64,000 nt of DNA from positions 1 to 64,000 of the forward strand of contig PMBI01000059.1 of NCBI GenBank assembly GCA_003153775.1, written 5' to 3'. The notes beneath the pieces were generated by a model that had not been told where the DNA came from, searched no databases, and saw only the letters and a program-made list of their open reading frames with translations. The translations under genes and the position numbers were made by a program. This stretch comes from Syntrophaceae bacterium. Lineage in GTDB: Bacteria > Desulfobacterota > Syntrophia > Syntrophales > UBA2185. Position 1 is the first letter of the stretch, and every line of letters starts with the position of its first letter. This document shows positions 34,109 through 50,205 of this stretch, piece by piece.

Positions 34109-34128
34109 ATTCTTATTTCTTGCAGGGG

Positions 34129-34149: not shown

Positions 34150-34216
34150 ATTAAGTATGGACCGAAGTGGATAAATAAGAACCGTCTTCAACAATCATCT
34201 GCACAGGGGATGAATT

Positions 34217-34558
34217 ATGAAAGGATGTCTTAAGTTGGGAGGAGATCCTGTTTTAGATCGTGGGAGCATAGAAATTTTTAGAAATATTTCAAAAGATACT
34301 GTAATTAAAATTTTAGAAAAATACAGACTAAAGGAATTCAAGGTTGATTGGCCTCTCATGTCTTGGGGAAGACCTCGATGCGGCGCGTGCGACAATATAT
34401 TGTATTCCGCAGAAACATTTGAGCAGCAAATGTGCTGGACCCATATTCATTCGAGCCTCGTTGTGGAGACAGATGGAGAGGCGAAACAACAAAAGATTTT
34501 CATGCTTTGCCGGGAATGCGCAGACAGGATTAACCGTGACAGGATTAATCAAATGTAA
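34217..34558 (+). CDS. Hypothetical zinc-ribbon-like small protein
   Basis: The 113-residue protein begins at an ATG behind AGGGGATG. Two cysteine pairs, CGACD near residue 55 and CRECAD near 98, with a CWTHIH segment between, suggest one zinc site. The N-terminal 45 residues include a helix with FRNISKDTVIKILEKYRLKEF. I do not recognise the family. It lies in an A+T-rich stretch between a small hypothetical gene and a decayed histidine-kinase fragment, and may itself be a recent arrival. Confidence 0.6.
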   Translation: MKGCLKLGGDPVLDRGSIEIFRNISKDTVIKILEKYRLKEFKVDWPLMSWGRPRCGACDNILYSAETFEQQMCWTHIHSSLVVETDGEAKQQKIFMLCRECADRINRDRINQM

Positions 34559-35032
34559 ATCGATGACTTTATTGCATCCGCCTTTGGCTTCTGTTAGCTT
34601 TTGCCATAAGTACCGCCATGGTGCCGCTAGCGGCATCTGGTTCTATCGCGATCAGGCGAAACGCTTTCGGTAGAGAGCGGAGAGTGAACCGCTGGCCGTC
34701 GAGAGGTCGGTTTCCGTCCGCTGGGGCACGCGAGTTACTGCGCTGGTTCCTATAACCGACCCGTAGACGGCAATGCCCGGCTATTTGAGCCCTTTTATTC
34801 CACAAAAAAGGAGGGCTGGGAATCGGCCTCTTTCAGGCAAAGAACATTGCGAACGCCATGAAAGGGGATATCCGGGTTCTTCCTGAGGTGGCAGGCGTGA
34901 CATTTGAGATCACGCTTCCAAATGGCAAAAGAGAGTAAATTTCTTTTACACTTGACACTTACTGTTCATGGAGTCTTGATGCAACTATATGACTGTAACC
35001 GCCTATTGTGATGACAAAAAAAGGAGGTGAAC
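34559..35032. other. Gap holding a kinase remnant
   Basis: Apart from the histidine-kinase tail at 34766-34938 nothing is supported. The part at 34600-34760 is G+C-richer than its surroundings but yields no recognisable protein in any frame. TTGACA at 34952 has no good -10 partner. Confidence 0.5.
34766..34938 (+). pseudogene. Frameshifted C-terminal fragment of a sensor histidine kinase
   Basis: The first frame reads RLFEPFYSTKK up to the A6 run at 34804-34809. The next frame reads GGLGIGLFQAKNIANAMKG and ends TFEITLPNGKRE-stop at 34938. Together these are the F box, G2 box and last strand of a histidine kinase ATPase domain, resembling the PrsK type. A one-base shift at the homopolymer separates them, and the rest of the kinase is absent upstream. 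It is therefore a decayed remnant. Confidence 0.75.
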
Positions 35033-35671
35033 ATGTTTAATTACGCAACCAAACGTGAAAGAGGTTTTACCCTTGTGGAGTTGGCAATCGTGCTGGTAAT
35101 CATCGGCTTGATTCTTGCCGGCGTCATGAAGGGGCAGGAGCTCATCACGAACGCAAAGATTAAAAGAACGTACAACATGCAGAAGGAGATCGCCGCCGCA
35201 ATCTATACCTACTTTGACAGGTATCAGTATTATCCCGGTGACGACCCACAGGCTGCATCAAGATTTGCAAATCCTGTGGTTACAAATGGCGATGGCAATG
35301 CCCTGATAGGCGTCGGTGCCGCAACTACACCCGCCAATTTCGCCTGCGCGGCGACAGGTACGGAACAGTGTGATCTCTGGGCTGAACTGAGGCAGACAGG
35401 TATTCTTGCAGGCAGCGGCTTCACCAACCCCGTGCATCCCTATGGCGGAGCTATTGCCGTCAGCTATTACAACGCGCCTCTCGCACCTACTCTCCTGACT
35501 CACTGGATACATTTCCAGAATATGCCGTATGACGTCTGCCAGCTCATCGATCAGCAATTTGACGACGGAGAACTTGTGACGCCTTCGGGAGCGGCGACGG
35601 GCACAATAAGGGGGACCACAGATTATATGGCAGCCACCAGTGGTGTTTTCCAGTTTATGTTCAAGCTCTAA
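35033..35671 (+). CDS. Type IV pilin-like / pseudopilin protein
   Basis: ATG 35033 lies five bases behind AAGGAGG; an in-frame GTG at 35027 overlaps the ribosome site. The 212-residue protein has a short basic leader ending RERG|FTLVELAIVLVIIGLILAG, the class III signal recognised by prepilin peptidase, with Glu at +5 of the mature protein. The globular part has CAATGTEQC and other loops typical of prepilin-type N-methylation proteins. No pilus or type II secretion machinery is encoded nearby. It may be a minor pilin or a secreted filament subunit. Confidence 0.85.
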   Translation: MFNYATKRERGFTLVELAIVLVIIGLILAGVMKGQELITNAKIKRTYNMQKEIAAAIYTYFDRYQYYPGDDPQAASRFANPVVTNGDGNALIGVGAATTPANFACAATGTEQCDLWAELRQTGILAGSGFTNPVHPYGGAIAVSYYNAPLAPTLLTHWIHFQNMPYDVCQLIDQQFDDGELVTPSGAATGTIRGTTDYMAATSGVFQFMFKL

Positions 35672-35868
35672 GCGAAATTCACGTAAGGAAGTAAGCGGAT
35701 TGGGCGCATGATATGTTCAGATCTGGAAACAGGGATTGGGGTCGGACCAAGTTAAGCACTTGGTATCATGAAGAGTCGCATCAATAAATGATCTGGCATT
35801 GGCTTTAAACAACCAATTTTGACCCTGGAAATGTATTTCTAAAAATTCAACCCTCTGGTGAAATCAAA

Positions 35869-36393
35869 CTATTCCTGCAGCGCCCTGTCGTATGCTGATG
35901 CGGAAAACCCGCGGACGAAGCGGCCGTTGATAACGGCAAAGGGAACTCCGCCTCTACCGTCCAATTGTCTTTTACGGGCTGCCGCTTCCTTGTCCCTCTC
36001 CACGTCATATTCGGTGAAATCAATCCCCCGTGACCGGAAGTAGTCGCGCGCCTTGCGGCAGTATTGGCACCAGCTGGTAGTATAGAGCACTACGTCAGCC
36101 TTCTTCTTCCTTTCGAGGGACGGTCTTGAATCTCCTTTATTCTTGACTGGCGGCGGCGGCGTGCCGGGGCTGTCTTCCTGTGTGTCTTTGTAGACTTCTA
36201 TTTTACCCGCTGGTTTAGCCGTAGGCGGCGGCGAATCCGAGATGTGCATTTCTCCTTTGTCATCCACCCATTTGTAAATCTCGGCCGCGGCCGTGGAGGC
36301 GAGATAAAGCGCCAAAGCCAAAAGGATGAAGACAAATGTAATTATCTCTTTCCCTGTTCTTATCGGCTTGTTTATTTTAATTTCCCGCTGCAT
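35869..36393 (-). CDS. DUF4124-glutaredoxin fusion, membrane-anchored
   Basis: In this 174-residue protein, a basic N-terminus and one hydrophobic segment near 18-38 anchor or export it. A DUF4124 segment follows (IYKWVDDKGEMHISDSPP), then a Pro-rich linker, then a glutaredoxin domain (about 97-174) with active site CQYC and the cis-proline loop GVPFAVI. The glutaredoxin would therefore face the periplasm, where disulphide exchange on envelope proteins is likely. The stop is 23 bases before the TPP enzyme in the same direction; it lies downstream of that gene. Confidence 0.85.
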   Translation of the reverse strand: MQREIKINKPIRTGKEIITFVFILLALALYLASTAAAEIYKWVDDKGEMHISDSPPPTAKPAGKIEVYKDTQEDSPGTPPPPVKNKGDSRPSLERKKKADVVLYTTSWCQYCRKARDYFRSRGIDFTEYDVERDKEAAARKRQLDGRGGVPFAVINGRFVRGFSASAYDRALQE

Positions 36394-36418
36394 GTCTCTC
36401 CAATGTTGTCTCTATCTG

Positions 36419-38065
36419 TTATTTAAACATGGATTGTGTCATCGTTCCTGAACTGAACACATTCGGGTCCACCATCACATTTATCAAAGACGGCTTTCCG
36501 GATTTGCGTGCCCTCTCCAGGGCAGGGCGGATATGTGCGGGTTCTGTGACCTGCTCGCCGTAGCCTCCCATGGCCTCGACCACGCGGTCATAACGAAGCG
36601 GACTGAGGACATTCGCCACTTCGCCGCGCGCCCGGCCGTATCTTTCCATCTGTCCGTAACGGACCTGATTCCATGCGGCATTGTTCGCCACGATGCCGAT
36701 TACCGGCATATTGAAGCGTATGAGTGTATCATAGTCAAAGCCCGTCAGTCCAAAGGCCCCGTCACCGAAGAGGACGATAACCTCCGTGTCGGGCATGGCC
36801 GCTTTAGCGGCAATGGCAAAGGGCGTCCCCACGCCGAGGGTGCCTAAGGGGCCCGGATCGAGCCAGCGCCCCGGTATGCACGGTGTGACGACGCTTGCGG
36901 ACATTGTTACCACGTCCCCGCCGTCGGCGATAAAGATTGTGTCTTCCCGCATGAATGCCTTAATCTCGCTTGCAAGGCGCAGGGGATGGATGGGCACGGC
37001 ATCGGATTCAAGGCACGGCCTGTCTTTATCGAGCAATTTCTTTTCGAGCTGGCAAAGTTCATCGAGCCATCCTCCGCCCCGCCGAGAAGTCGTGAACGCT
37101 TCCGTGAGCTGTGTGAGCACCGCCTTTATATCGCCCTCGATGCCGATTGAGATTTCCCGGTTGTGTCCTAATTCACCGTAGTCTAAATCGACTTGAATTA
37201 CTTTCGCATCTTTCGCGATGCGGTTGCCGTATGCCAGCCTGAAATCAAAGGGCGTGCCGATAACCATGACCACATCGGCCTTGGAAAGGGCGTGCCTTCG
37301 CGAGCGGACCATGAAAGAGGGACAATCACCGGAAAGACATCCCCTCGCAGCGCCGTTGAGATAGGTGGGTATGCAGGCCTTGTCCACAAATGTCGAAAGC
37401 TCGTCATCGGCGCGGCAATACCAGACCTGCGTGCCCGCGATGATGGCCGGCCTTTGGGCCTTTTCCAGCAGCTCCGCCGCCTCTTTGATGAGAGCGGGGT
37501 CGCCGTATTTGCGGCCCCGTGAACGTATGTATGAAGGGAAGGTGACCGTATCCAGGTCCACAGCGTTATCCAGCACGTCTATGGGGATTTCGATAAAGGA
37601 CGGTCCCGGACGCCCGTTATACGCCTCTCTTAAGGCAGTGGCAATTAATTCGGGAATGCGCTCCGTATCGGAAATAGAGATGGAGATCTTGGTTATGGGC
37701 TTCGTGAGTGCAACATGGTCGAGCTCCTGCAGCCCGCCTTTCAGAAGTTGTTTCCGCGGGGCCTGCCCGCCGATTACAAGCATGGGCACCTGGTTTCGGA
37801 AGGCATTGGCAATGCCGGTGATGGCGTCGGTCACGCCGGGACCGGCAGTCACCACAGCAACGCCGGGAGAGCCAGTAAGCCTGGTCCACGCCTCAGCGGC
37901 ATGGGCCGCGGTCTGTTCATGCCTCACGTTGATGACCCGGATCCCCTCATCCACGAAGCCATTATAGATATCCATAATGTGGCCGCCGGAAAGAGTGAAT
38001 ACGGTTGTAACACCTATTTGTTTGAGTGTTCTCGCTGCCAGTTGCCCGCCCGTAATCTTCGCCAT
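36419..38065 (-). CDS. Thiamine-pyrophosphate enzyme of the acetolactate synthase-like family
   Basis: ATG 38065 has AGGAGGAGGATCTCG directly upstream. The frame continues 5' but without a start signal. The 548-residue protein has the N-terminal pyrimidine-binding domain (FTLSGGHIMDIYNG near 24, RHEQTAAHAAE near 49 with the catalytic Glu), a middle domain and the C-terminal pyrophosphate motif GDG(AF)-to-NN (GDGAFGLTGF to VANNAAWN, near 440-470). The family includes acetolactate synthase, 2-hydroxyacyl-CoA lyase and benzaldehyde lyase. Lack of an adjacent small subunit and FAD-specific features argues against classical IlvB. Confidence 0.87.
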   Translation of the reverse strand: MAKITGGQLAARTLKQIGVTTVFTLSGGHIMDIYNGFVDEGIRVINVRHEQTAAHAAEAWTRLTGSPGVAVVTAGPGVTDAITGIANAFRNQVPMLVIGGQAPRKQLLKGGLQELDHVALTKPITKISISISDTERIPELIATALREAYNGRPGPSFIEIPIDVLDNAVDLDTVTFPSYIRSRGRKYGDPALIKEAAELLEKAQRPAIIAGTQVWYCRADDELSTFVDKACIPTYLNGAARGCLSGDCPSFMVRSRRHALSKADVVMVIGTPFDFRLAYGNRIAKDAKVIQVDLDYGELGHNREISIGIEGDIKAVLTQLTEAFTTSRRGGGWLDELCQLEKKLLDKDRPCLESDAVPIHPLRLASEIKAFMREDTIFIADGGDVVTMSASVVTPCIPGRWLDPGPLGTLGVGTPFAIAAKAAMPDTEVIVLFGDGAFGLTGFDYDTLIRFNMPVIGIVANNAAWNQVRYGQMERYGRARGEVANVLSPLRYDRVVEAMGGYGEQVTEPAHIRPALERARKSGKPSLINVMVDPNVFSSGTMTQSMFK

Positions 38066-38105
38066 CGAGATCCTCCTCCTAACGTAATGAAAATGTTTCA
38101 ATGGG

Positions 38106-38134
38106 ATTATAGGAAAATAGATTCCATGTGTCAA
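38106..38134 (-). promoter_or_regulatory. Perfect-consensus sigma-70 promoter of the TPP enzyme
   Basis: On the - strand TTGACA (38134-38129) and TATAAT (38111-38106) are separated by 17 bases, a full match to the consensus. The start codon of the TPP enzyme is about 40 bases downstream. Confidence 0.88.
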
Positions 38135-38144
38135 ACGATTAACT

Positions 38145-40307
38145 TTAAACAAGGAGAATGGAAAAAGCGGCAAGGAGAAGCATCCCCTGTGTTGTGACAT
38201 CGAGTCCCAGCACCGGAATTAAGAGAAGGCTGCCGAGAAGAGAGCCGGCGCATCCTCCCAGCAGGTCCGCCGCGTAGAGGGGAGAGATTACGCTTCTTTG
38301 GTCTTTTATTTCGTAAAGGGTAGCATATGCAAAAATACCGGCAACAAGAAATCCCGCCGCCATAAGGAGCCATGAGGTTTGCAGCAAACCCGTTGCCGCG
38401 CTCACCGTCAGCCGGGTTGCTGTAACTACGCACAAGAAGCAGAATCCGGCCAGAAGCGCGACGCCATACCATCTGACCAATCTTGGTCGATCGGCGAACC
38501 TGGCCATCAATCTTTCGATGCTTATTGCACCGAGGGCAAGCCCTGCCATGAAGCTCATAAGCAGGAGGCCGATATCCTGATAGAGGACTCCGTACTTAAC
38601 CTGATAATAGAGAATGAGGATTGTTTCGAGAACCATGCCGAGAAAACCTGCGGCAGCGACCAACAGGACGCGACGGCAGGAAGGCGCGAAGCGGGAGAGC
38701 AGAAACAGAAGCGGCATGCTGATCCAAAGCAGAAGCGGCAGGGCAGGCCTTGCTGCGAGCTTGTCCGGAAGGGAAGAAAAATCTATCAGGGAAATGCCGG
38801 AGAAGAATTTTGAGAGCCAGATCGTTAAGGCATACTGGTAGCAGACAGGCCTCACATCCGTGTTTGCAGGTGCAGATTCTGTCCTCAGCATATTTTTGAT
38901 TTCGCCAAATCTGTCGTTCGTAAAAAGGTATCTGATGTAATTCGGGGAAACCAGCCGCGTTGAGATTTTCCGCTCCAGGAGACGCCGGGACATGATCTCC
39001 GGCGTCCGCGGCAATTGCGCGCGGGAGGCCGTGATAATATTCGTTTGTCCCGGAAGAAATAGTATCTCAGGAAAAACAGTTTCGAGGGCGCGGCAGATGC
39101 TCACTGTGCGCCGCATGAGCGGCAGTGTCCAGATGTTCTCTGCCGAGCGGAGCCTGAAGGCGAGAATCCCGCCGGGACTCAGTTTCGCAGCGCAAAGTTC
39201 GAAGAACTCCTTTGTATAAAAACGGTTTGCCTGGCCTGACGCTGGTTCCGGCATGCCGACCAGTATGAGATCGTACCTGCCGCTGTCTTTGAGAAATCGG
39301 CGCGGATCAGCAAGGATAATGCTGACATTCGGTTCCTTGAGAGATTTCTGGATGTCATCCGGAAGATGCCGCATGACCAGATCGAGCATGACAGGATTCA
39401 GTTCGACGTAATCGATTGTCTTCGGTTTGTATTTTTGCATCTCTCTGACGATCCCTTCAATCCCTCCTCCCAGGATCAAGACCTGCTCGGGATTTGCGTG
39501 CTGGAGGGCTGCGAGATTGGTGAAGTATTCGGCTTCCATTCCTTCAGTATCAAAGGCAAGGGCGTCATTTTCGAAAACTGAGATTTGCCCGTACGATTGG
39601 GCAACCGTGATCCTGCCGTATGGAGAGTCTTTACTGGCAATCAGATTCGGATGGTTCCAGGCAACCATCCGCTGATCGAGGGGAGATGCCCTCCAGAAGA
39701 GCAGGAGAAGGATACATGCCATGACTGCCGCCGTCCATTGCAATGGGGATGTCTTCTTTGGTTTTAGAAACACAAGGGGGGTGATCACGGCAGCGAAAGC
39801 GCATGCAAAGGCGATGGCAAAGTTCTGCATTCCCCATTTGAGGAAAAGGGTTGCGGCCAGGCCGCCCATCAACCCGCCGAGACTCTCGATGGCGTAGGCA
39901 ATGGCCACTGTTTTTCCTTTCGCGACGTATAACTTTGCGGTGAACTGGAATAGAATTCCGGACAGTATCCCCGCGGGCATGAGTGAAATGACCGCAATCG
40001 TAAATTGCTGGAGAAAGCTGAGGTATGCACCTGGTACGCCTCCCACGAGGAGACGGCTCGCGCGGATGAATACGATATCAAGGGGAAGAAGGATTCCGAA
40101 GATGATAAAAAGGAGAGCCAGTGTTTTACCTGATGGAAACTCCGTGCGGCGGCCGACAAGCGCCCCTATGGCTGTCCAAAAAAGCCAGACGCCGAGGGCC
40201 AGGAGATAAATAAGCTCGACGCCGTAGAAGGAGACGTTTATTTCCCGGAGCAGTATGACCTGTCCCAGAATGGAAACGAGCCCAATGAAGAAAAGTGAGA
40301 TGATCAT
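38145..40307 (-). CDS. Membrane protein with spermidine synthase-like domain
   Basis: ATG 40307 lies five bases after the MEMO/AMMECR1 gene. The 720-residue protein has about six or seven N-terminal membrane segments (1-215), a soluble domain ~235-490 and about six or more C-terminal segments. The soluble part carries QVLILGGGIEGIVREM and VELNPVM, the nucleotide-binding motifs of the SpeE/methyltransferase fold. Related fused-MFS spermidine synthases are poorly understood. Its coupling to an exported AmmeMemoRadiSam pair suggests a shared process at the membrane; the substrate is unknown. Confidence 0.85.
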   Translation of the reverse strand: MIISLFFIGLVSILGQVILLREINVSFYGVELIYLLALGVWLFWTAIGALVGRRTEFPSGKTLALLFIIFGILLPLDIVFIRASRLLVGGVPGAYLSFLQQFTIAVISLMPAGILSGILFQFTAKLYVAKGKTVAIAYAIESLGGLMGGLAATLFLKWGMQNFAIAFACAFAAVITPLVFLKPKKTSPLQWTAAVMACILLLLFWRASPLDQRMVAWNHPNLIASKDSPYGRITVAQSYGQISVFENDALAFDTEGMEAEYFTNLAALQHANPEQVLILGGGIEGIVREMQKYKPKTIDYVELNPVMLDLVMRHLPDDIQKSLKEPNVSIILADPRRFLKDSGRYDLILVGMPEPASGQANRFYTKEFFELCAAKLSPGGILAFRLRSAENIWTLPLMRRTVSICRALETVFPEILFLPGQTNIITASRAQLPRTPEIMSRRLLERKISTRLVSPNYIRYLFTNDRFGEIKNMLRTESAPANTDVRPVCYQYALTIWLSKFFSGISLIDFSSLPDKLAARPALPLLLWISMPLLFLLSRFAPSCRRVLLVAAAGFLGMVLETILILYYQVKYGVLYQDIGLLLMSFMAGLALGAISIERLMARFADRPRLVRWYGVALLAGFCFLCVVTATRLTVSAATGLLQTSWLLMAAGFLVAGIFAYATLYEIKDQRSVISPLYAADLLGGCAGSLLGSLLLIPVLGLDVTTQGMLLLAAFSILLV

Positions 40308-40312
40308 GGAGA

Positions 40313-41851
40313 TTACTTGAAATCCGCCTCGCTGAACACCACTGCCTGGAAGGTTAACAATTGCGCGCCCTGTTTCCAGCATCCGCGGGGGAGATCCGCT
40401 TTTGCACAGAGGTTATCGAGCGTTTCGTCACGGTTCCATTTCTGTTCTGTAGCGACCTGGGGAAGGAAGACGGCCGAACGTCCCTGTTTGACGAGCAGAA
40501 CACCGTCCCGCCCGACGACTATTTGCTCGGGGCCGGAAACCTCTTTCAAGGGAGTAAGTACCGATATCTCGATTTCGATGTCACGAAGCTCGTCGGCGGT
40601 CACCGGGTTGAAGCGCGGGTCATCAAATGCTGAGTGCCAAGCCATGGCGCCTGTGAGCTTCCCGAGTGGTTCGTCTCCTATTATCCGGCCGATGCAACCG
40701 CGGAGCTCATTTCTTTTCTTGAGGGTTACAAAAACGCCGCGTGGCTGCTGGAGATTCGCACTGAAACCTCTGGCCGGGGGAACTGTATCAGTCGAAAATT
40801 TTCTGGATATGCTTTCCCTCGCAAAGGTAAGCAGGGCCTTCTTGTCGGAGAGGCTGAGCGGTTCGGAAAGAAGAGCAGGGGAGGGGACATCCCCTTTGCT
40901 TATGTTCTTTTCGCCGGCGTTTCTGGTCAGGACGACTGCGCCGTAGCCGACCACCCTCGACTTATCACCGAAAGGGACATCTCCGGAGTTCGCATATTTT
41001 ATAATTTCACCTTGCGTGGCGCCCAAGGCTTTCGCCGCCGCCATGGCCGCCATGACGGGCGCCTCTCCGCAGGCGCAGGTAGCGAGATTGGGAACACGCA
41101 TATTCATCTGCGATTGGGTGACCGAGTGCAGCAGGGCAGGGTCAAGCGTTGTAATCGCCTTGAGGGTCTTCCTGTCCACTACGACTGCATCCTCCGCGGC
41201 AGGATAGTGGGAAAGGTCGGAACTGGCGATTATCAATGCGCGCCTGTTCTTCACAACCTTCGCCAGGGCCTGGCCGAAGCGCGTGCACATGGCCACATCG
41301 GGAGAGCCAACGACAACGGGGACGATCTTCGCCTCAGGAAAGACGACCTGGACAAATGGCACTATCACTTCAACCGAGTGCTCACGCGCGTGGACTGACT
41401 TATCCAATACACAATCGTCGGGATCCGCAGCCAGGATTTCAGAGACGATTTCTCTTTCGATCGGCGCGATGCCGAGCGGCGTGCGGAATCCCGTCCCCGG
41501 ATGGACAGAAATTTTTTCAAACCCCCGCGTCGTGTGATTTGTTCCGAGGATGACGATCACGTCATACTGTTTGTCCTTAACCTGCCCAAATGCGTCGGCG
41601 CATATCTTACCGGAATACACGTAGCCCGCATGGGGCGCAATAATGGCCACAACATCCCTGGTCCTGGCGGGGAGGGCTTCCTCCATGAACTTTTCAATGT
41701 CGAGCTTCAGTTTGGATGCGGAATCCGGGTAGAATGCTCCCGCCACTGCAGGTTCGCGAACGTCAGCCTCCGGCGCTTTCGTAGCCTGACACGCAAGAGC
41801 AAAACCGAGACTAACGACGAATAGTACAGCACACCATCTCAGAACCTTCAT
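40313..41851 (-). CDS. AmmeMemoRadiSam B-A fusion (MEMO1-AMMECR1) with signal peptide
   Basis: ATG 41851 precedes a signal peptide: a basic n-region, a hydrophobic core (residues 7-19) and ALA|C at 18-21, so Cys21 may be lipidated or the site cut by signal peptidase I. Residues ~31-310 are a MEMO domain with the His74 (APHAGYVYSG), His106 (LGTNHT) and Cys261 (CGEAP) positions of the MEMO1 metal site. Residues ~335-512 are an AMMECR1 domain with LRGCIG at 383-388. These two domains plus a radical SAM protein define the AmmeMemoRadiSam system, whose function is unknown. The protein has 512 residues and follows the radical SAM gene by 17 bases. Confidence 0.9.
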   Translation of the reverse strand: MKVLRWCAVLFVVSLGFALACQATKAPEADVREPAVAGAFYPDSASKLKLDIEKFMEEALPARTRDVVAIIAPHAGYVYSGKICADAFGQVKDKQYDVIVILGTNHTTRGFEKISVHPGTGFRTPLGIAPIEREIVSEILAADPDDCVLDKSVHAREHSVEVIVPFVQVVFPEAKIVPVVVGSPDVAMCTRFGQALAKVVKNRRALIIASSDLSHYPAAEDAVVVDRKTLKAITTLDPALLHSVTQSQMNMRVPNLATCACGEAPVMAAMAAAKALGATQGEIIKYANSGDVPFGDKSRVVGYGAVVLTRNAGEKNISKGDVPSPALLSEPLSLSDKKALLTFARESISRKFSTDTVPPARGFSANLQQPRGVFVTLKKRNELRGCIGRIIGDEPLGKLTGAMAWHSAFDDPRFNPVTADELRDIEIEISVLTPLKEVSGPEQIVVGRDGVLLVKQGRSAVFLPQVATEQKWNRDETLDNLCAKADLPRGCWKQGAQLLTFQAVVFSEADFK

Positions 41852-41868
41852 TTTTTGATGACCTCTTT

Positions 41869-43050
41869 CTATACCCAGACTCCTGCGATTTTCCGGCTGC
41901 AGAATTTGCAGCGTCCACTTTTTATATTCATCTCCGTGACGAAAAAGCCCTGCCTTTGTATCAGGGCTTTCTTGCAGCTCGGGCAATAAGTGTTATCCCC
42001 CGGATGACTCGGAACATTTCCCACGTACGGAAAGTGAATGCCTCTGCTGAGAGCCATGTCACGCGCCCGCTCGAGAGTGGCTACAGGCGTGGGCGGAAGA
42101 TTGAGCATCCGGTAGGCGGGATGGAAACGGGAGAAGTGCAGGGGCACGTCGGGGCCGCATTCGCCCAATACCCAGTCTATCAGATCCTGGAGCATTTTGT
42201 CTGAATCGTTCAATGTGGGGACCACGAGGTTAACGATTTCGAGATGGGCGCGGCTCTTTGCTATCTGTTTGATGCCTGCAAGCACTGGCTTCAGCTCCGC
42301 GCCGCACACGCTGCGATAAAAATCTTCGCTGTAGCCCTTCAGGTCTATTTTGATCGCGTCGAGCGCCTTGCACATTTCGGCAAGAGGCGCCTGATTCACG
42401 AATCCGCAGCTTATCAATGCCGAGCGAAGGCCTTGCTTCTTCGCATCCCGGGCTATGTCCAGCATGTATTCGGCAAAGACCGTCGGCTCATTGTAGGTAA
42501 ATGCCACGACGCGCGCCTTGCCGGCGGATGCTGATCTGGCGATCTTCTCTGGTGAAGTATAGGGGATCTGATAATCTTCCGGCCGGGCCTGAGAGATTTC
42601 CCAGTTCTGGCAGCACTTGCACTGAAGGGGACATCCCGCGGTAGCCAGGGAATACGCCTCGGCCCCGGGGAGAAAATGATAAAAGGGTTTCTTCTCTATC
42701 GGGTCGACATGGATGCTGACCGGCCGGCCATAGACGAGGCTCCTCAGCCCTCCCTGAACGTTCACGCGGGCGCGGCATTTGCCCCGCTCGCCGTTTCCGA
42801 TGATACAGTTGTGGGGGCAGAGGAAGCATCTGACGGCGTTGTCTTTGTGCAGAGAAGTCCAGTAACGCGCACGGGGCGCGGACTGCAGCAGCGCATCTAT
42901 CGCATCTGCGGAATTGCCTGCGAGGGCGACGCCCAAATCGCCGCCTGATAAAAGCCCCTGCCAGAAGGGATCGGAGAGAACTATGCCTGCGCCGCCAATG
43001 ATGGGAGCAAGCCTCGCGCAGTTTGTCAAAAAATCACGTCTTGAGATCAT
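41869..43050 (-). CDS. amrS: AmmeMemoRadiSam system radical SAM enzyme with Tat signal
   Basis: In this 393-residue protein, residues 3-8 read SRRDFL, an exact twin-arginine motif, followed by a hydrophobic stretch, so export through Tat is predicted. Cys140-x3-Cys144-x2-Cys147 binds the SAM-cleaving [4Fe-4S] cluster. Cys75, Cys78, Cys82 and Cys92 form an N-terminal cluster, and the C-terminus has a four-cysteine ribbon. The family is that of the AmmeMemoRadiSam enzyme. Radical SAM enzymes are normally cytoplasmic, so folding with clusters before export through Tat would be needed. It is the first gene of a three-gene unit. Confidence 0.9.
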   Translation of the reverse strand: MISRRDFLTNCARLAPIIGGAGIVLSDPFWQGLLSGGDLGVALAGNSADAIDALLQSAPRARYWTSLHKDNAVRCFLCPHNCIIGNGERGKCRARVNVQGGLRSLVYGRPVSIHVDPIEKKPFYHFLPGAEAYSLATAGCPLQCKCCQNWEISQARPEDYQIPYTSPEKIARSASAGKARVVAFTYNEPTVFAEYMLDIARDAKKQGLRSALISCGFVNQAPLAEMCKALDAIKIDLKGYSEDFYRSVCGAELKPVLAGIKQIAKSRAHLEIVNLVVPTLNDSDKMLQDLIDWVLGECGPDVPLHFSRFHPAYRMLNLPPTPVATLERARDMALSRGIHFPYVGNVPSHPGDNTYCPSCKKALIQRQGFFVTEMNIKSGRCKFCSRKIAGVWV

Positions 43051-43108
43051 GACATTATCATTTGGGTCTGCGTACTGTCGTATTTATAGTTGCGATTGTA
43101 AAGCTTGT

Positions 43109-43114
43109 TGTCAA
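43109..43114 (-). promoter_or_regulatory. Possible promoter -35 element of the AmmeMemoRadiSam unit
   Basis: TTGACA on the - strand about 60 bases before the radical SAM start is followed by TATAAA after 20 bases, a wider gap than usual. It is a weak candidate only. Confidence 0.35.
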
Positions 43115-43168
43115 GTATAAGGGAAGTGAGGATGGCAAGTCAATGGGAAGAAACTGCAGCTAATCATA

Positions 43169-43198
43169 TTGACGAAAAGGGCGGGGAGAATGTATAGT
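43169..43198 (+). promoter_or_regulatory. Sigma-70 promoter of the SDR gene
   Basis: TTGACG (43169-43174) and TATAGT (43193-43198) have an 18-base spacer. The start codon is 30 bases downstream. Confidence 0.65.
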
Positions 43199-43227
43199 GC
43201 AAATGATACAAGGGACTCTTATACAAA

Positions 43228-44031
43228 ATGGCAAAATTTTCCGGTAGGGTAACATTTATTACAGGGGCCTCGTCAGGCATAGGGGCAGCGTTGGCTCTCG
43301 AGGTTGCGCGTCAGGGCGGCGATGTGGCACTGGCTGCTCGTCGCGAGGAACGATTGCAGAAACTTGCCCGGGAGATTGAGTCGATGGGACGGCGAGCGCT
43401 CGCGGTTCTCTGTGACGTAAGCAATGATGATGATCTTCAGGCTGCCGCAGAAAAAACAATAAATCAATTTGGCCGTATCGATTATGTTGTTGCCAATGCG
43501 GGTTTCGGTATTGCGGGACGCTTTGAAAAGCTGACAATCGAGGATTTCCGGCGCCAGTTCGAGACGAACGTGTTCGGCGTGCTGAAAACCATTTACGCGA
43601 CGCGGGAATACCTCACCGCCTCTCACGGATGTCTCGTAATCATCGGCAGCATTAACGGATATATTGCAACTCCGCGCCTCTCGGCGTACTCAATGAGTAA
43701 GTTTGCACTTCATGGGCTTGCCGCATCGCTCCGGCACGAATTCCGGCGACAGGGTGTAGCCGTGGTCCTGATTGTTCCCGGGTATGTGCAAACAGAGATC
43801 CGTCAGGTTGATAAATCGGGTGTGCATCATCCTGAAATGAAAGACCGCATTCCTGCGTGGCTGCAGATATCGCGCGAAGAGGCTGCGCGCCAGATCGCAC
43901 GGGCGATGTACAGGCGTGAGCGTGAGAGGATTATTACCGGTCATGGCAGGATCGCCGTCTTCCTTCAGCGTCACTGCCCGAGACTCATGTCCGGGATTAT
44001 CGCCCGGATGGGTGCAAAGGGTCTCGTCTAA
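43228..44031 (+). CDS. Short-chain dehydrogenase/reductase (SDR)
   Basis: The 267-residue protein has the TGASSGIGAAL cofactor motif near residue 11, NAGFG near 90, and the catalytic Ser (IIGSING) and Tyr-x3-Lys (AYSMSKFA) near 138-158. The fold is a classical NAD(P)-dependent SDR that reduces or oxidises carbonyl and hydroxyl groups. Its C-terminal extension with MYRRERERIITGHGR resembles lipid-acting SDRs. It is a single gene with its own promoter and meets the PolX gene tail to tail one base apart. The substrate is not determinable. Confidence 0.9.
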   Translation: MAKFSGRVTFITGASSGIGAALALEVARQGGDVALAARREERLQKLAREIESMGRRALAVLCDVSNDDDLQAAAEKTINQFGRIDYVVANAGFGIAGRFEKLTIEDFRRQFETNVFGVLKTIYATREYLTASHGCLVIIGSINGYIATPRLSAYSMSKFALHGLAASLRHEFRRQGVAVVLIVPGYVQTEIRQVDKSGVHHPEMKDRIPAWLQISREEAARQIARAMYRRERERIITGHGRIAVFLQRHCPRLMSGIIARMGAKGLV

Positions 44032-44032
44032 C

Positions 44033-45751
44033 TCATCTTTTGAAAAAGGCGAGAACTTTTTCAAGAGAGAGACAGTTCAAGATATGCCTGGGCTCGCACC
44101 AGCCGCGGCGCGCGATTCCTATGCCGAAGCGCATCAGTTTCAACTGGCCTGCAATGTGTGAATCCGTTCCGATCGCGAGCATGACACCCAGCTCCCGTGC
44201 GCGGTGGATGTGGATGTCCTTGAGGTCGAGGCGGCTCGGCATGGCGTTAATCTCCAGCGCCTTCTGGTGTTTTACTGCCGCCTTGAAGACTGCTTCCATG
44301 TCGACGGCTGTCGGCTCCCGCTCTCCTATAAGGCGGCTCGTCGGGTGCGCAATGATATCGATGTGAGGGTGTTCAATCGCCTTTATAATGCGCCGGGTGA
44401 CGCGCTCTTCGCTCTGATTGAAAGATGAGTGAACGGCGCCGACGACGCAATCAAGCTCCGCTAATATTTGGTCAGGCATATCGATGGAACCGTCCGCTCT
44501 TATATCAACCTCCATGCCGCAGAGTATACGAAAGCCTTTTAATTTCTGATTGAGCCTGCGAATTTCCAGAATCTGTTCCTTCAGACGCTCTTCCGTCAAG
44601 CCGTGCGCAATGCCCAGCCCTTTGGAATGGTCGGTAATCGCCATGTACTTGTAGCCCGCGTCCTTTGCAGCCAGTGCCATTTCTTCGATGCTATTGTTGC
44701 CGTCGCTCCACTTAGAGTGCGCATGAAAATCTCCCTTGATGTCCCGCAGTTCGACGAGGCGGGGGATCGCGTGGTTTTCCGCAAGTTCGATTTCGCCCTG
44801 ATCTTCTCTGATCTCCGGAGGAATGTATTGCATGCCGAGGCGCTTGTAGAAGGCCTCTTCCGTGGTGAATTTTTCCAGCTTGTCATGCGCGACGTCCGTG
44901 ATTCCGTATTCGCTGAGCTTAAGTCCCTTCTTCTGATACTTCGTTCTGAGGGCGATATTGTGCTCCTTGCTGCCTGTGAAATATTGCAGAAGCGAACCGA
45001 AGGAGTCATGCTCCACCATTCGCAAATCCGCCTGGAGACCGGGCGAGAGAATGACACTCGCCTTGGTCGGCCCTTTGGCCATGACTTCCTTTACAACCGG
45101 GAGCGCGATAAATTTATTGATAACCTTCTCCGGATTGTCTGCGGTCCCCATGATATCTATATCCCCGACTGTTTCACGGAAACGCCGGAGGCTCCCCGCA
45201 GAGATCATGTTCTTCACCCCCGGGAGTTTGCTGAGACTATTTAAGATGTCTTCGACTATAGGCAGGGCCTGACCGATAGGGATGCGCTGATCCTTGCGGC
45301 GCACGGCCTCAATCTTGTGGAGTATGTTCTGCGCGGTCTTGTCCCCCATGCGGAAGAGATCGGCGACCTTTCCCTCCTTGATAGCCTCTTCCAGTTCTTC
45401 TGCCGATGTTATCTTCAGCTCCGACGAAAGGCGGTGCGCCGTCCTGGGGCCGATACCGGGAATCTCCAGGAGACGCGTTATGCCTTCGGGAAATTCGTGC
45501 TTGAGGCTTTCGTAGGCTTCGAGCTTTCCCGTCTCTATCAGTTCGGTGCTCTTCTTTGCTATCGCGTCGCCTACGCCGGGGATTTTTTGAAAGTCCTCTC
45601 CATGTTCCAGCATGACTGCCATCTCTTTGGGGAGGTGTTCGATGACCTGGGCGGCACGCCTGTAGGCGCGTATCTTAAATACGTTCTCCCCCTTCAGTTC
45701 GAGAAGGTCGGCCATATCATGAAATACCCTGGCGATTTCTGAATTCTTCAT
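44033..45751 (-). CDS. polX: DNA polymerase X family protein with PHP domain (PolX)
   Basis: The 572-residue protein has helix-hairpin-helix repeats in residues ~1-140 (PGVGDAIAKK, PGIGPRTAHRL). A nucleotidyltransferase part follows with acidic residues GDIDIMG near 200 and ADLRMVE near 242. A PHP phosphoesterase domain occupies ~330-572 (FHAHSKWSDG, DHSKGLG, IAHPTSR). Bacterial PolX fills short gaps in base-excision repair, and PHP supplies 3' exonuclease or phosphatase activity. All expected motifs look intact. Confidence 0.93.
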   Translation of the reverse strand: MKNSEIARVFHDMADLLELKGENVFKIRAYRRAAQVIEHLPKEMAVMLEHGEDFQKIPGVGDAIAKKSTELIETGKLEAYESLKHEFPEGITRLLEIPGIGPRTAHRLSSELKITSAEELEEAIKEGKVADLFRMGDKTAQNILHKIEAVRRKDQRIPIGQALPIVEDILNSLSKLPGVKNMISAGSLRRFRETVGDIDIMGTADNPEKVINKFIALPVVKEVMAKGPTKASVILSPGLQADLRMVEHDSFGSLLQYFTGSKEHNIALRTKYQKKGLKLSEYGITDVAHDKLEKFTTEEAFYKRLGMQYIPPEIREDQGEIELAENHAIPRLVELRDIKGDFHAHSKWSDGNNSIEEMALAAKDAGYKYMAITDHSKGLGIAHGLTEERLKEQILEIRRLNQKLKGFRILCGMEVDIRADGSIDMPDQILAELDCVVGAVHSSFNQSEERVTRRIIKAIEHPHIDIIAHPTSRLIGEREPTAVDMEAVFKAAVKHQKALEINAMPSRLDLKDIHIHRARELGVMLAIGTDSHIAGQLKLMRFGIGIARRGWCEPRHILNCLSLEKVLAFFKR

Positions 45752-46225
45752 TTCACAAATATCTCGCTATGAAATTCAGACGGTTTTGCATCAGCTGATA
45801 ATTATATTATTTAATATATCCCAATTCCGCAATGCTAAATTGAATAACATATCATTAAGGTGTCATATCGACCCCCTCGGTTCACTCGGGGTAAACTCCG
45901 TGAGATATCTTGTTTTTTAGTTTTTACCCACCTACTAAGATTTCTCGCTGCGCTCGAAATGGCAATAGTACATCGAAATTTCCGAACTGTAGCATAAAAC
46001 TCGTAGTTGGATTTATTAACCAGTGCCTCCTTTACATTGAGATAAATCGCAAGAGATGGTAAATAGAATAATAGTAAATATGAAGATGACATGAATAGTA
46101 AGCCCGTTGGCGACTAAGGATTGGTCGATTTAACGATTAGAAATCATCTGGTCGATAATGAAAAGTACCTTCAGAAATGCTCGGTTCAAATGAATGACCA
46201 CAACCAGCAAATGAGGACTTGACGT
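45752..46225. other. A+T-rich intergenic region with repeat-like palindromes
   Basis: No gene is visible in 474 bases. It separates PolX from the orphan coiled-coil gene. The repeat-like phrases at 45870-45963 are annotated separately. The rest is A+T-rich (for example 45795-45820) without clear promoter elements. Confidence 0.5.
45870..45963. repeat. Dispersed-repeat-like sequence
   Basis: GACCCCCTCGGTTCACTCGG near 45870 and GATTTCTCGCTGCGCTCG near 45939 are phrases that occur as dispersed repeats in many bacterial genomes. Neither is repeated inside this window, so the call rests on recognition alone. Confidence 0.4.
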
Positions 46226-47584
46226 ATGGCAATGAACACAGAGAGACTCACCCAATTTTTTGAACAAGTTAAGACCCTGACCTTCTGGCAACGACTTTTC
46301 AGATGGTCCCAATTTAGAAGTCTGAGTTATGAAGCATATGAGGAATTTAAAACACTTCTCTCTGAGACTGAAAGAACTGTCCAAGAACTGGATACAGCCA
46401 AGACAGATATTTCTATCCTAAAGAACGACAGTGAGCACCTCAGAAAATCGCAGTCCACACTCGAAAATGAGGTCGGTAATCTTAGGAGGGAAGTAAGCGA
46501 GAACCTCCGAAAGATTTCAGAACTGACGTCTTTGGCAGCAACGAAAGACGAAGCACTTAGACAGGCAGAAAGCAAGATTAAAGGGCTTGAAATTGCGGCC
46601 GCAACAGCAGAGGTAAGAATCGGCGATCTCACTCAAGAGAACTCTCAGCTCAAGCAAGAAAATACCATTTTCAAGCAAACTGAAGATGACAGAAGAGCTA
46701 ACTATGAAAAGGCTATGGCAACGGTGAAAGCAATCACGGACAAGATTCAAGCCGACAGGGAGAAAGAAATCGCTGACCGTCAGGAAGAAGAGATAGAGCG
46801 GCTAAACAAAATGAAAGCCACCTGGGTAAATCATGAAGAAAATGTTAAGAATCAAATTAAAATGATCTGTGACAGAAACACTATAGAATATGTTGACAAG
46901 GTTCCCTTCAAGGGTAATCCCGATAACGCGATAACGGTATGCGATGAGTTCATAATCTTCGATGCCAAAAGTCCGGCATCAGATGACCTTACTAACTTTC
47001 CCACCTATATCAAGTTGCAAACGGAATCGGTGAAGAAATACATAAAGGAGGAGAAGGTCAAGAAAGATATCTTTCTAGTAATTCCATCAAACACTTTGGA
47101 TGTCATCGATTGTTTCTTTTACAATGTGGCAGACTATAAAGTTTACGTTGTTGCGCTTGACGCCCTGGAGCCAATTATTTTGAGCCTGAAGAAACTTGAG
47201 GAATATAAATTCGCCGAGCAGCTAAGTCCTGAAGACCGGGATAACATTTGCAGAGTGATCGGTAAGTTTGCTCATGTTACCAAGCGACGAATTCAAATCG
47301 ATCAGTTCTTTGAACGTCAGTTTTTAGAGGCTCTCTCGAAAAGTGAAGCTGACTTGCCGCGAGATATTCAGGAGAAAGTTGTTGAGTACGAACGTTCGGA
47401 GAAATTAAATCCACCGCAGGAAAAAAGGGCAAAGCTCATTTCCAGTACCGAGCTTGAGACTGACAGCAAGAAGATACGCAAAGAGGCGGAGGCAAAGGCA
47501 ATCTCTTTTCCAGCTTCGGTTCAACAGGGAATCACGAGCTTACCTTTATACAGCGATGAATCAGGCAGTGAGGAAAAGGCGTAA
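46226..47584 (+). CDS. Orphan coiled-coil protein with PD-(D/E)XK-like motif
   Basis: The 452-residue protein has no signal peptide. Residues ~40-205 form a long coiled coil rich in Glu, Lys and Leu. The C-terminal globular domain (~210-400) has NPDNAIT (Pro232-Asp233) followed after 12 residues by FDAKSP (Asp246-Ala-Lys248), the layout of PD-(D/E)XK nuclease-like folds. KKDIFLVIPSNT and the long RENICRVIGKFAHVTKRR-like helix follow (ICRVIGKFAHVTKRRIQ near 341). This coiled-coil plus endonuclease-fold arrangement recalls RmuC, although it is not RmuC. The gene is more A+T-rich than its neighbours and repeat-like DNA lies upstream, which suggests acquisition. Function is unknown. Confidence 0.85.
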   Translation: MAMNTERLTQFFEQVKTLTFWQRLFRWSQFRSLSYEAYEEFKTLLSETERTVQELDTAKTDISILKNDSEHLRKSQSTLENEVGNLRREVSENLRKISELTSLAATKDEALRQAESKIKGLEIAAATAEVRIGDLTQENSQLKQENTIFKQTEDDRRANYEKAMATVKAITDKIQADREKEIADRQEEEIERLNKMKATWVNHEENVKNQIKMICDRNTIEYVDKVPFKGNPDNAITVCDEFIIFDAKSPASDDLTNFPTYIKLQTESVKKYIKEEKVKKDIFLVIPSNTLDVIDCFFYNVADYKVYVVALDALEPIILSLKKLEEYKFAEQLSPEDRDNICRVIGKFAHVTKRRIQIDQFFERQFLEALSKSEADLPRDIQEKVVEYERSEKLNPPQEKRAKLISSTELETDSKKIRKEAEAKAISFPASVQQGITSLPLYSDESGSEEKA

Positions 47585-47606
47585 CTTAGGGCGATGCCGA
47601 CGGACC

Positions 47607-47912
47607 CTACGCACTGAATTTGCGGAATAGATGATGTGCCGCGAGTACCGGGTGTTTGAAAGTCATCCTCGGCCCTGCAAATCGCATCACCTCTTTTATT
47701 TGAGATCGCATGTCCGGTTTGAAGCAGTGAACTGTGCAGTCGGCGCAGACGGGCTTGTTCACGCCGAACGTGCATTTTCTTATCCTATCTTGGGCATAAT
47801 CGAATAACTTTTTACATCCTTCACAAAGTTCGCCTCTGCCATGGTGATGTTTGCAAAACATCTCTACCATTATGCGAATCGTCTTAATTTCTCTTTCCAA
47901 ATTCTGCCCCAT
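47607..47912 (-). CDS. YgbA_NO / nitrous oxide-stimulated promoter family protein
   Basis: ATG 47912 is preferred over an in-frame TTG at 47921. The protein has 101 residues with many cysteines: FCKHHHG, LCEGCKKLFDYA, RKCTFG, VCADCTVHCF. It ends in PRMTFKHPVLAAHHLF. This is the pattern of the family named after the nitric-oxide-stimulated E. coli ygbA gene. Its molecular role is unclear; metal or cluster binding is likely. It is tail to tail with the coiled-coil gene, 22 bases apart. Confidence 0.85.
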   Translation of the reverse strand: MGQNLEREIKTIRIMVEMFCKHHHGRGELCEGCKKLFDYAQDRIRKCTFGVNKPVCADCTVHCFKPDMRSQIKEVMRFAGPRMTFKHPVLAAHHLFRKFSA

Positions 47913-47975
47913 AAATAGCAAGAGGTGACATTCATGCTGTCACCCCGCACTCCTTCTTAACAATTCCCTGAGCTT

Positions 47976-48797
47976 CTACACTACGGAAGGCGGCATATTC
48001 TTGAAGACGCGCCCGTCAGGCGAATACTCGACGATCTCGCCGTCTTCCTCGATCATGACGGTGAGAATGGCATCGACTTTCTTCCTCTTCGTGGAGGAGA
48101 TAATTTCCTGTATCGTCTTATGGTGGGAGAGTTCCTCAATTGTCACGAGAGTGGGAACCACCATATCGAACTCTCTCCTGCGGAACCCCTCGAGGATCTT
48201 CTTCGGTGTAAGCCAGACGTGCCTCGTCAGTTCAATGCCATCATGGAGGGCCTCCTGGTTTGCCGGCGCCTCGGTAACAAAGAACCTGACGTCATAACGA
48301 TGCGGCAGGAATTCAGGGGTGATCCAGTGCGAAAAATAGTGAAGGCGATCTGCGGCAAGCGTCAGTCCCTCCGTGAGGAGCATGTTTTGCAGAGTGATTT
48401 CTCCGGTCTGTAATTTTTTGCGATAAGAGCGAAAGCGTCTCCGGACATCTTCCGAATCGAAGGACATCAAAGTCTTGTCCCCGTGATAGGCCATAAGCAG
48501 GCCGACTTCTTCAAACGTCTCCCGGATGCCCGCCACCCAGGCGCCGATGGCCTTTTCCGGTGACGACATATTGTGCATGATGGCCTGCGCCTTCTTCGCA
48601 TCCATGCCAGTGCAGAGGCTCTCTATATCCGGCGAATAATCCGCCTGATCGAGACAGCCTCCGGGGAACACATAGGAGCCGGGGACGAATTTACTGTCCA
48701 TGTGCCTTAAGACCATGAGGACCTCAAATTCTTCCGGGTCTCCCAGTGACTCGCGGAGTATGATTACCGTTGCGGCATCTTTCGGTTTAGCGGCCAT
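47976..48797 (-). CDS. NUDIX hydrolase (NUDT19-like)
   Basis: In this 273-residue protein, VLMVLRHMDSKFVPGSYVFPGG near residues 27-48 and GIRETFEEVGLL near 92 form a Nudix box interrupted by a ~40-residue insertion. This is the layout of NUDT19/RP2-type proteins, which hydrolyse CoA or acyl-CoA diesters. A CoA-pool role would suit a fatty-acid-oxidising cell. Substrate is inferred from the layout only. The gene is single, and its start is 255 bases from the divergent transglycosylase. Confidence 0.85.
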   Translation of the reverse strand: MAAKPKDAATVIILRESLGDPEEFEVLMVLRHMDSKFVPGSYVFPGGCLDQADYSPDIESLCTGMDAKKAQAIMHNMSSPEKAIGAWVAGIRETFEEVGLLMAYHGDKTLMSFDSEDVRRRFRSYRKKLQTGEITLQNMLLTEGLTLAADRLHYFSHWITPEFLPHRYDVRFFVTEAPANQEALHDGIELTRHVWLTPKKILEGFRRREFDMVVPTLVTIEELSHHKTIQEIISSTKRKKVDAILTVMIEEDGEIVEYSPDGRVFKNMPPSVV

Positions 48798-48988
48798 ATT
48801 TCTAAACTCTTGCGATAGTAATATTTTGCAAATCGTCTGAGACGATGTGACTACAGGGCATCACAAGCGCAGGCGCGCAGAAAACGTCCACGATTTATCT
48901 TCTTTTACATTAGAGGAATCATGCCTGTTTGTAAACCTCTTTATCACAGAAGGATGCCACGTTCGCAAGATGCACAAATGAACTCTTC

Positions 48989-49016
48989 TTGACTGGGGGT
49001 GTATATGTAATATACG
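48989..49016 (+). promoter_or_regulatory. Possible promoter of the transglycosylase gene
   Basis: TTGACT (48989-48994) and TATACG (49011-49016) are 16 bases apart, about 38 bases before the start codon. Confidence 0.45.
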
Positions 49017-49053
49017 TTGATTATTAATCCGAAGAAACGACAAGGAGATGAAC

Positions 49054-50205
49054 ATGTCGGAAACTTTTGAACATGCAAACTGTTTTGGAAGAAGCTCAGG
49101 GATCTTTCTTTTAGCCTTGTGCGTGGCATTTCTCACAGCCACGCCTGCCTGGTGCGATCCGCCTCACATGATCGATCCGCCTTCTTCATCGTCGATGATT
49201 GCGCTGATTAAGACCACGGGTCCCTTGGATTTCTGCGGAGAGCGTGTGCCGCTTGATAATCCTGAAGTCCGGGAGCGACTGGAAAAAGAATTTCTGGTTA
49301 GTCTCTGGAATCGTCCCCAGGTTATCCTCTGGATGAAACGCTCCGGACGCTACATGCCCTATATCGAAGAAATGCTGAAACAAAATAATATGCCCATGGA
49401 CCTTAAATATGTGGCTGTCATAGAAAGTTCACTCACGTTCCATATGAGTTCCTCAAAGGGAGCGAAGGGCAGTTGGCAGTTTATGGAAGAGACGGGGAAA
49501 AAGTACGGCCTTAAGATTGACTCCGACGTGGATGAACGGAGAAATTTTCTTTCCTCGACCAGGGCCGCCATCAATTATCTGAAAAAACTTTATGAGAAAT
49601 TCGGGTCGTGGACGCTCGCGGCTGCCGCCTATAATATGGGTGAAGAAGGCCTGAAAACGGAGATGCTCCTTCAGAAAACGAACAATTTTTATTATCTGTA
49701 TCTCCCCACGGAGACGCAGCAATATATATTCCGGGCGGTTTCTGCAAAGGAGATACTGTCCAATCCTGAAAGATATGGATTCAAGTTGTCGAAGGAGGAT
49801 ATCTATCCGCCCCTGCAGTTTGAGCGCGTGGAGCTTGTATGTGATCAGGAAGCGCCTATTTATCTGGTTGCCGAGGCTGCGATGACGTACTACAAGGTGA
49901 TCAAGGATCTGAACCCGGAAATCAAAGGGCATTATCTGCCCAAAGGGAAATGTGACATCCTGGTTCCGAAGGGCGCCGCTGCCGGGTTTCAGGCGCGGTA
50001 TGAAGATCTCGTAAAGAGATGGCAGGGAGAGCGCAAAGAACATGTGTACGTTGTCAAGAAGGGGGAGAACCTTTCTTCGATAGCCGCCGATTTTAACGTG
50101 CCGCTCCCGGCCTTGCTCATCTGGAACCATTTCGGATCCAAGAAGCAGGTGAAACCGGGTGATCGGCTGCTGATTTTTCCCGAGGAGAAAAAACAAGAAA
50201 AATAG
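49054..50205 (+). CDS. MltD-like lytic transglycosylase with LysM domain
   Basis: ATG 49054 is chosen over ATG 49048 because AAGGAG ends directly at 49048, leaving it no spacing. In the 383-residue protein, a signal peptide occupies about 1-35, and a GH23 domain follows (~90-230) with the catalytic Glu in VIESSLTFHM, then GSWQFMEETGKKYGL and AAAYNMGEEG. A LysM repeat (VYVVKKGENLSSIA) lies near 332-378. It cleaves peptidoglycan to 1,6-anhydro products in the periplasm. The AmpG-like transporter at 31834 could recycle such products. Confidence 0.91.
   Translation: MSETFEHANCFGRSSGIFLLALCVAFLTATPAWCDPPHMIDPPSSSSMIALIKTTGPLDFCGERVPLDNPEVRERLEKEFLVSLWNRPQVILWMKRSGRYMPYIEEMLKQNNMPMDLKYVAVIESSLTFHMSSSKGAKGSWQFMEETGKKYGLKIDSDVDERRNFLSSTRAAINYLKKLYEKFGSWTLAAAAYNMGEEGLKTEMLLQKTNNFYYLYLPTETQQYIFRAVSAKEILSNPERYGFKLSKEDIYPPLQFERVELVCDQEAPIYLVAEAAMTYYKVIKDLNPEIKGHYLPKGKCDILVPKGAAAGFQARYEDLVKRWQGERKEHVYVVKKGENLSSIAADFNVPLPALLIWNHFGSKKQVKPGDRLLIFPEEKKQEK

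Follow-up and report, generated by a model that had tools for sequence, protein, structure and literature searches.

Members of the AmmeMemoRadiSam family, a trio that consists of a radical SAM enzyme, a MEMO protein and an AMMECR1 protein, are known. To our knowledge, the function of the trio has not been established, though MEMO1 and AMMECR1 have human members. Radical SAM enzymes are viewed as cytoplasmic, as it is in this compartment that the cell handles SAM, electrons of low potential and oxygen-sensitive clusters. Human MEMO1 uses H49, H81 and C244 as iron ligands (PMC11081632). Moreover, the fungal enzyme NHMT, which is composed of seven transmembrane (TM) helices and a SpeE-like domain that lacks the D/E of the nucleotide motif (I322), acts as a SAM methyltransferase on secreted proteins, and a limited supply of SAM in the ER has been regarded as a possible constraint on it (PMC10349129). 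A survey of flavinylated electron-transfer systems names no radical SAM, MEMO or AMMECR1 partner (PMC8238504), and a radical SAM or MEMO partner is also not named in a second paper on flavinylation. In a study of Tat tail-anchored proteins, radical SAM is mentioned only as an unrelated neighbour (PMC10924467). In the literature that was searched, which was confined to open-licence papers, neither a Tat-exported AmmeMemoRadiSam member nor a SpeE-like partner has been reported.

Here, we describe a locus in the window, i.e. the whole stretch of 64,000 nucleotides of a Syntrophaceae bacterium (contig PMBI01000059.1) that was analysed. The best explanation for this locus, to which we assign a probability of roughly 0.65, is a branch of AmmeMemoRadiSam that is predicted to act outside the cytoplasm and includes an additional membrane component. 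The locus consists of three closely packed genes on the minus strand (43050 to 38145) with gaps of 17 and 5 bp. They encode the AmmeMemoRadiSam radical SAM enzyme with an N-terminal export signal (TIGR04337; 41869..43050, 393 aa; profile match and AF2 model), a MEMO-AMMECR1 fusion with a signal peptide (40313..41851, 512 aa; profile matches, relatives and a ribosome site) and a protein with 14 TM helices and a central spermidine-synthase-like Rossmann domain, which is predicted to lie outside (38145..40307; starting 5 nt past the stop codon of the fusion gene). The operon of the initial annotation comprised the first two genes, which are indeed present, and omitted the third. An intergenic region (43051..43227) separates the operon from a divergent SDR gene on the opposite strand, and no Rfam elements were detected across positions 34000-50000. 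The genes for a TPP enzyme (36419-38065) and a DUF4124-glutaredoxin protein (35869-36393) were considered as operon members but not included because the TPP gene is not kept in L161 and L166, the loci of the nearest relatives. The latter gene, also on the minus strand, codes for a predicted exported protein whose glutaredoxin domain carries a WCQYC motif.

The genome of this bacterium encodes TatC (259.7 bits). It also contains a second TIGR04337 enzyme without the N-terminal extension (L002) and, on another contig (L006), unfused and signal-free MEMO and AMMECR1 proteins that are encoded side by side. Thus, judged by these signals, the same genome encodes a cytoplasmic trio in addition to the exported one. 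The C23 region that carries the cytoplasmic radical SAM gene (L002) is present as a slightly diverged copy on C98 (L003), which suggests a mixture of strains in the assembly. A further class of signal-free MEMO proteins with about 120 extra N-terminal residues is represented in the same genome (L008; C6:107313-108182) and in L223-L228.

The radical SAM enzyme starts with MISRRDFLTNCARLAPIIGGAGIVL (open reading frame 43050..41869, minus strand; first residues MISRRDFL) and scores 373 bits against TIGR04337 (cut-off 220) and 61.5 bits against PF04055. As position 1 of the TIGR04337 profile corresponds to residue 61, the first 60 residues are extra to the family domain. They harbour a putative twin-arginine signal region (42919..43050), in which SRRDFLT is followed by a moderately hydrophobic stretch (h-region score of 1.67 by our own rule), and a possible cleavage site, VALA/GN, is located around residue 44. 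The AF2 model shows a helix from residue 4 to 25 and then a linker of low confidence. The SRRDF/L segment is kept in L161 and L166, and R5 does not vary among the 13 homologues that were aligned. Downstream of the extension, the enzyme contains an N-terminal CxxCxxxC...C motif (C75-C92; 42775..42828), which is invariant in both exported and cytoplasmic enzymes, the CxxxCxxC cluster motif (C140-PLQ-C144-KC-C147; 42610..42633) and the C-terminal pairs C356/C359 and C381/C384 (41899..41985). E188 aligns with the glutamate at the GGE position of the pyruvate formate-lyase (PFL)-activating enzyme, and K238 occupies the DLK position. The cysteines of the CxxxCxxC and CxxCxxxC...C motifs as well as E188 and K238 are identical in all 112 signal-bearing enzymes. 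The residues of the 4Fe-4S cluster and these SAM contacts are hence unaltered, and conservation at most of the remaining mapped positions is as high as among enzymes of the cytoplasmic branch. Moreover, the AF2 model (pLDDT 94.3) has the PFL-activating enzyme 3cb8 as its top match in the PDB. The identity of the catalytic residues and this structural match argue against a degenerate protein.

The fusion begins at ATG 41851, which is preceded by the ribosome site GAAAGAGG. A start at TTG 41986 was rejected because the ATG has both this site and a signal peptide. The signal peptide, MKVLRWCAVLFVVSLGFALA (41789..41851, minus strand), ends FALA/C with a lipobox-like Cys21. This sequence differs from the canonical L-A/S-G/A-C at position -3, but the cysteine is retained in close relatives though the surrounding letters change (SAVAC in L161, AAAC in L166 and STSC in L043). 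The fusion is a putative lipoprotein. It scores above the cut-offs of both TIGR04336 (255.7 bits) and TIGR04335 (169.8 bits). In the MEMO domain (40925..41758), the ligands of human MEMO1 (7KQ8) map by profile alignment to H74, H106 and C261, of which the two histidines are invariant across 40 fusions and the cysteine is conserved in at least 90% of them. The AMMECR1 domain (40331..40837) carries LRGCIG. Thus, the features that the initial annotation had listed, namely SRRDFL plus a hydrophobic stretch as a Tat signal on the enzyme, a signal peptide ending ALA/C on the fusion, the CxxxCxxC cluster, the two His and one Cys of the MEMO site and LRGCIG, are all borne out, and the Tat signal belongs to a 60-residue extension with a conserved SRRDF/L segment.

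Homologues of the enzyme are common in the phylum, in which 236 of 247 genomes gave a match, and the open frames form a short (~340 aa) and a long (~380-430 aa) group. For the comparison, 80 named loci and 80 loci from the phylum were sampled and 162 radical SAM proteins were analysed; long ORFs and exported queries are over-represented among them, and the counts do not represent prevalence. Signals were called by our own rules and by reading borderline cases, not by SignalP. The automatic rule assigned a twin-arginine-type signal to 90 of the 162 proteins and Sec-like segments to more. After the borderline cases had been read, there were 96 Tat signals, 16 Sec-like signals, 48 proteins without a signal, among which L131 looks like a missed Tat case, and two that were cut off. 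In a tree of the catalytic domain, a well-supported branch splits 36 enzymes without an extension from 126 others, and all signal-bearing enzymes belong to the latter (112/126 vs 0/36), with seven changes between exported and not exported on the tree. The initial annotation had proposed to align homologues for the RR motif; the invariance of R5 together with this distribution indicates that the signal did not arise by chance. The carriers are labelled Latescibacterota, Acidobacteriota, Chloroflexota, Planctomycetota, Bacteroidota, Desulfobacterota, Verrucomicrobiota, Lentisphaerota and, with Sec-like signals, Omnitrophota. Hence, AmmeMemoRadiSam with predicted export is a widespread variant across many bacterial phyla and not a quirk of one genome. 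A Tat-signal radical SAM enzyme was also observed in L077 and L086, which are labelled Altiarchaeota and Aenigmatarchaeota; these are archaeal bins that were not checked for binning errors.

The partner proteins show a related pattern. If a MEMO/AMMECR1 protein is encoded no more than 3.5 kb away from a signal-bearing enzyme, it has a signal peptide of its own in 45 of 49 loci by our rule, compared with four of seven loci (L055, L092, L108 and L185) for those near a signal-less enzyme. Since a neighbouring MEMO is rare among signal-less enzymes, this difference does not go beyond p=0.035, and therefore a test at the level of genomes was added. Where the enzyme has no adjacent partner, a search of whole genomes revealed a signal-bearing fusion in 11 of 19 genomes with an exported enzyme and in one of 16 without it (p=0.0016; G173 counted as a control). 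Related genomes are not independent, and the p-values for the partners serve as guides. Six genomes from families f10 and f54 encode a Tat enzyme but yielded no signal-bearing MEMO, and none was detected in the genomes of several loci of the exported type, those with NapH neighbours among them.

The third gene encodes a membrane protein whose AF2 model (pLDDT 89.8) consists of seven N-terminal membrane helices, a SpeE-like domain (38880..39644, minus strand) and a second helical half. The domain matches SpeE structures with a TM-score of about 0.75 by target (Foldseek) and meets the criteria for a seven-strand SAM-dependent transferase fold (Rossmann fold with ribose and adenine acids). Its GGGIEG segment lacks the D/E of GxG(D/E)G, as do all 42 homologues, and YVEL and ADPRRF keep the nucleoside-binding acids; the ribose-type Glu is found in 38 of the 42 homologues and the adenine-type Asp in 41. 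The catalytic Asp of spermidine synthase is retained in nine of 42 homologues and replaced by Gly in the window protein. An active spermidine synthase was thus rejected, as both signature acids are lost. An outside position of the domain would assign to the cytoplasm those loops whose K+R density is 0.179, compared with 0.048 in the opposite loops, and by the positive-inside rule this position is favoured in 42/42 sequences, by each half separately. Among loci with enough flanking sequence, 40 of 87 in the exported branch have a homologue no more than 3.5 kb away, compared with one of 28 in the cytoplasmic branch. Looser clustering recovers the 14-TM cluster at 81 loci, where the median distance is 4 bp and the strand is mostly shared. 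We infer that the protein very probably belongs to the predicted exported system. It is possible but doubtful that it supplies or handles SAM or its products. In L046 (6119-7243), the MEMO-AMMECR1 and 14-TM genes of an exported operon flank a gene for a SagB-type nitroreductase that is joined to a cytochrome b561-like membrane segment.

Several exported-branch loci also encode putative electron carriers. Membrane proteins with NapH-like Fer4_5, FMN_bind or DsbD_2 domains are encoded on the strand of the enzyme gene and no more than 3 kb from it in 22 of 126 exported-branch loci, compared with none of the other 36 (p=0.004), and such domains are sometimes fused (L049). None of the NapH/NosR-like, FMN_bind or DsbD genes adjoins the window operon itself. 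Moreover, six of nine full-length close relatives (L042, L044, L045, L046, L127 and L142) possess a haem-c-type CxxCH motif between the signal and the catalytic domain, along with a similarly placed later His. The motif is absent from the window enzyme, L161 and L166. A haem, if attached, would need extracytoplasmic attachment; a zinc site is not excluded. Other genes were also observed next to exported enzymes. For instance, members of another radical SAM family, which have a Tat-type N-terminus (METTRRDFIKRTLLLGG...), are encoded next to the enzyme of L160 (3913-4962) and those of L124, L128, L129, L136, L137, L148 and L153; this family is not TIGR04337 (18.6 bits for the protein beside the L160 enzyme). 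DUF362 proteins, mostly with a Tat-like N-terminus, are encoded directly 5' of the exported radical SAM gene in seven loci (e.g. L074:6895-7896, L154:6288-7280 and L048:6749-7759).

In the reading that we favour, the radical SAM enzyme would probably acquire its iron-sulfur clusters in the cytoplasm before its export in the folded state via Tat. The fusion would be exported separately and held by a lipid anchor facing the periplasm, and the 14-TM protein would display a nucleoside-binding SpeE-like domain to the same compartment. Together, the three products could use SAM-dependent radical chemistry to modify a substrate in the periplasm or envelope, with electrons that may be delivered by membrane flavin, iron-sulfur or DsbD-type carriers and, in close relatives, by a c-type haem on the enzyme. 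The joint export of the enzyme and its metal-binding partner, as put forward in the initial annotation, is supported by the branch-wide signals and by the partner signals at both adjacent and genome level, and further by the predicted outside position of the SAM-type domain, the electron-transfer neighbours and the CxxCH motifs. The export signals, their conservation, the intact catalytic residues, the operon association and the predicted outward topology can be read from the sequences. An actual extracytoplasmic localisation is inferred from them without a localisation experiment, and we consider it likely. Catalysis with SAM outside the cytoplasm is a further inference whose chances fall slightly short of even. 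Tentative at best is the idea that such chemistry is widespread in bacteria and possibly some archaea, with SAM crossing the membrane, possibly via the 14-TM protein, and electrons coming from flavin, iron-sulfur, DsbD-type or haem-c carriers. It speaks against the favoured reading that radical SAM enzymes use SAM and that its route to the periplasm is unknown here. The missing ribosome site at ATG 43050 together with the downstream TTG, the lack of CxxCH in the window enzyme, the exported-type loci without a detected signal-bearing MEMO and the four loci that combine a signal-less enzyme with a signal-bearing MEMO also count against it.

The alternative of the initial annotation, a signal retained as a membrane anchor, cannot be excluded for the radical SAM protein itself. 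An uncleaved anchor would keep the radical SAM domain on the cytoplasmic face, where SAM, a cytoplasmic metabolite, and ferredoxin are found, and only the MEMO-AMMECR1 fusion would be outside. This would agree with the isolated helix in the AF2 model and with the long hydrophobic N-termini of some Omnitrophota relatives, which could be anchors. However, a plain anchor needs no twin-arginine motif, and these motifs are conserved across phyla; many relatives contain A-x-A cleavage-like sites (e.g. AFAQ and ARAQ), the haem-c-type motifs are located between signal and catalytic domain, and the partners, the SpeE-like domain and the electron carriers are all predicted to face outwards. We therefore regard an anchor as unlikely. 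It is similarly improbable that the enzyme is exported but has lost radical SAM chemistry and serves with MEMO as an iron-sulfur redox or metal-handling protein. Such a role would require no SAM outside and would fit the redox neighbour genes and the binding of iron by MEMO (PMC11081632). However, if SAM had fallen out of use, one would expect the residues of its pocket to have drifted, and so the conservation of E188, K238, the cluster cysteines and most mapped positions counts against this role, as do the nucleoside-binding acids that the SpeE-like partner keeps. Finally, a downstream start at TTG 42936 (residue 39), which follows AGGCGG and would omit the signal to leave a soluble, cytoplasmic enzyme, is very improbable even though ATG 43050 has no Shine-Dalgarno sequence (duplex +0.3 kcal/mol), since the SRRDF/L segment in the nearest relatives and the confinement of signals to one branch argue for the ATG, R5 is invariant, the adjacent partner is predicted to be exported, and relatives that start downstream without the signal segment, which would have refuted the initial annotation, were not what the comparison revealed.

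If the extracytoplasmic reading is true, the system would be a complete radical SAM pathway outside the cytoplasm, of a kind that is not known to have been described. The intact exported branch, the outward partners and the electron carriers make radical SAM chemistry outside the cytoplasm, and the arrival of SAM there, directly testable. Moreover, they open two new approaches to AmmeMemoRadiSam, via a fourth component and via the compartment where its substrate can be sought. An internal comparison is possible in genomes that, like the one from which the window comes, encode the cytoplasmic as well as the exported trio.

Compared with described systems, the locus is closest to AmmeMemoRadiSam (TIGR04335, TIGR04336 and TIGR04337), as all three components score above the cut-offs and the cysteines, MEMO ligands and LRGCIG are kept. 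It differs in that the AMMECR1 and MEMO components are fused and bear a secretion signal, the enzyme has a Tat signal, and the operon contains the 14-TM SpeE-like gene; the TIGR models leave the signal extension uncovered. The enzyme resembles the PFL-activating enzyme 3cb8, its best fold match (TM-score 0.79 by target, E 7e-14), in the CxxxCxxC motif and the GGE- and DLK-type SAM contacts. However, the latter is cytoplasmic, only ~245 aa long and ~18% identical, and it lacks a Tat signal and the extra N- and C-terminal Cys motifs. The 14-TM protein shares with fungal NHMT the order of seven N-terminal TM helices and a SpeE-like domain, in which a hydrophobic residue replaces the D/E of GxG(D/E)G. 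Unlike NHMT, it is bacterial, has an extra C-terminal TM half and is encoded in a radical SAM operon, and we do not claim homology of the TM domains. Human MEMO1 (7KQ8) is cytosolic and has a single domain, whereas the MEMO of the window is predicted to be secreted and is fused to AMMECR1; both belong to the same fold family, and all three ligands map to conserved residues. Finally, the NapH/NosR-like, FMN_bind and DsbD families of the flavinylated electron-transfer systems (PMC8238504) are the same as those found beside exported enzymes in 22 loci.
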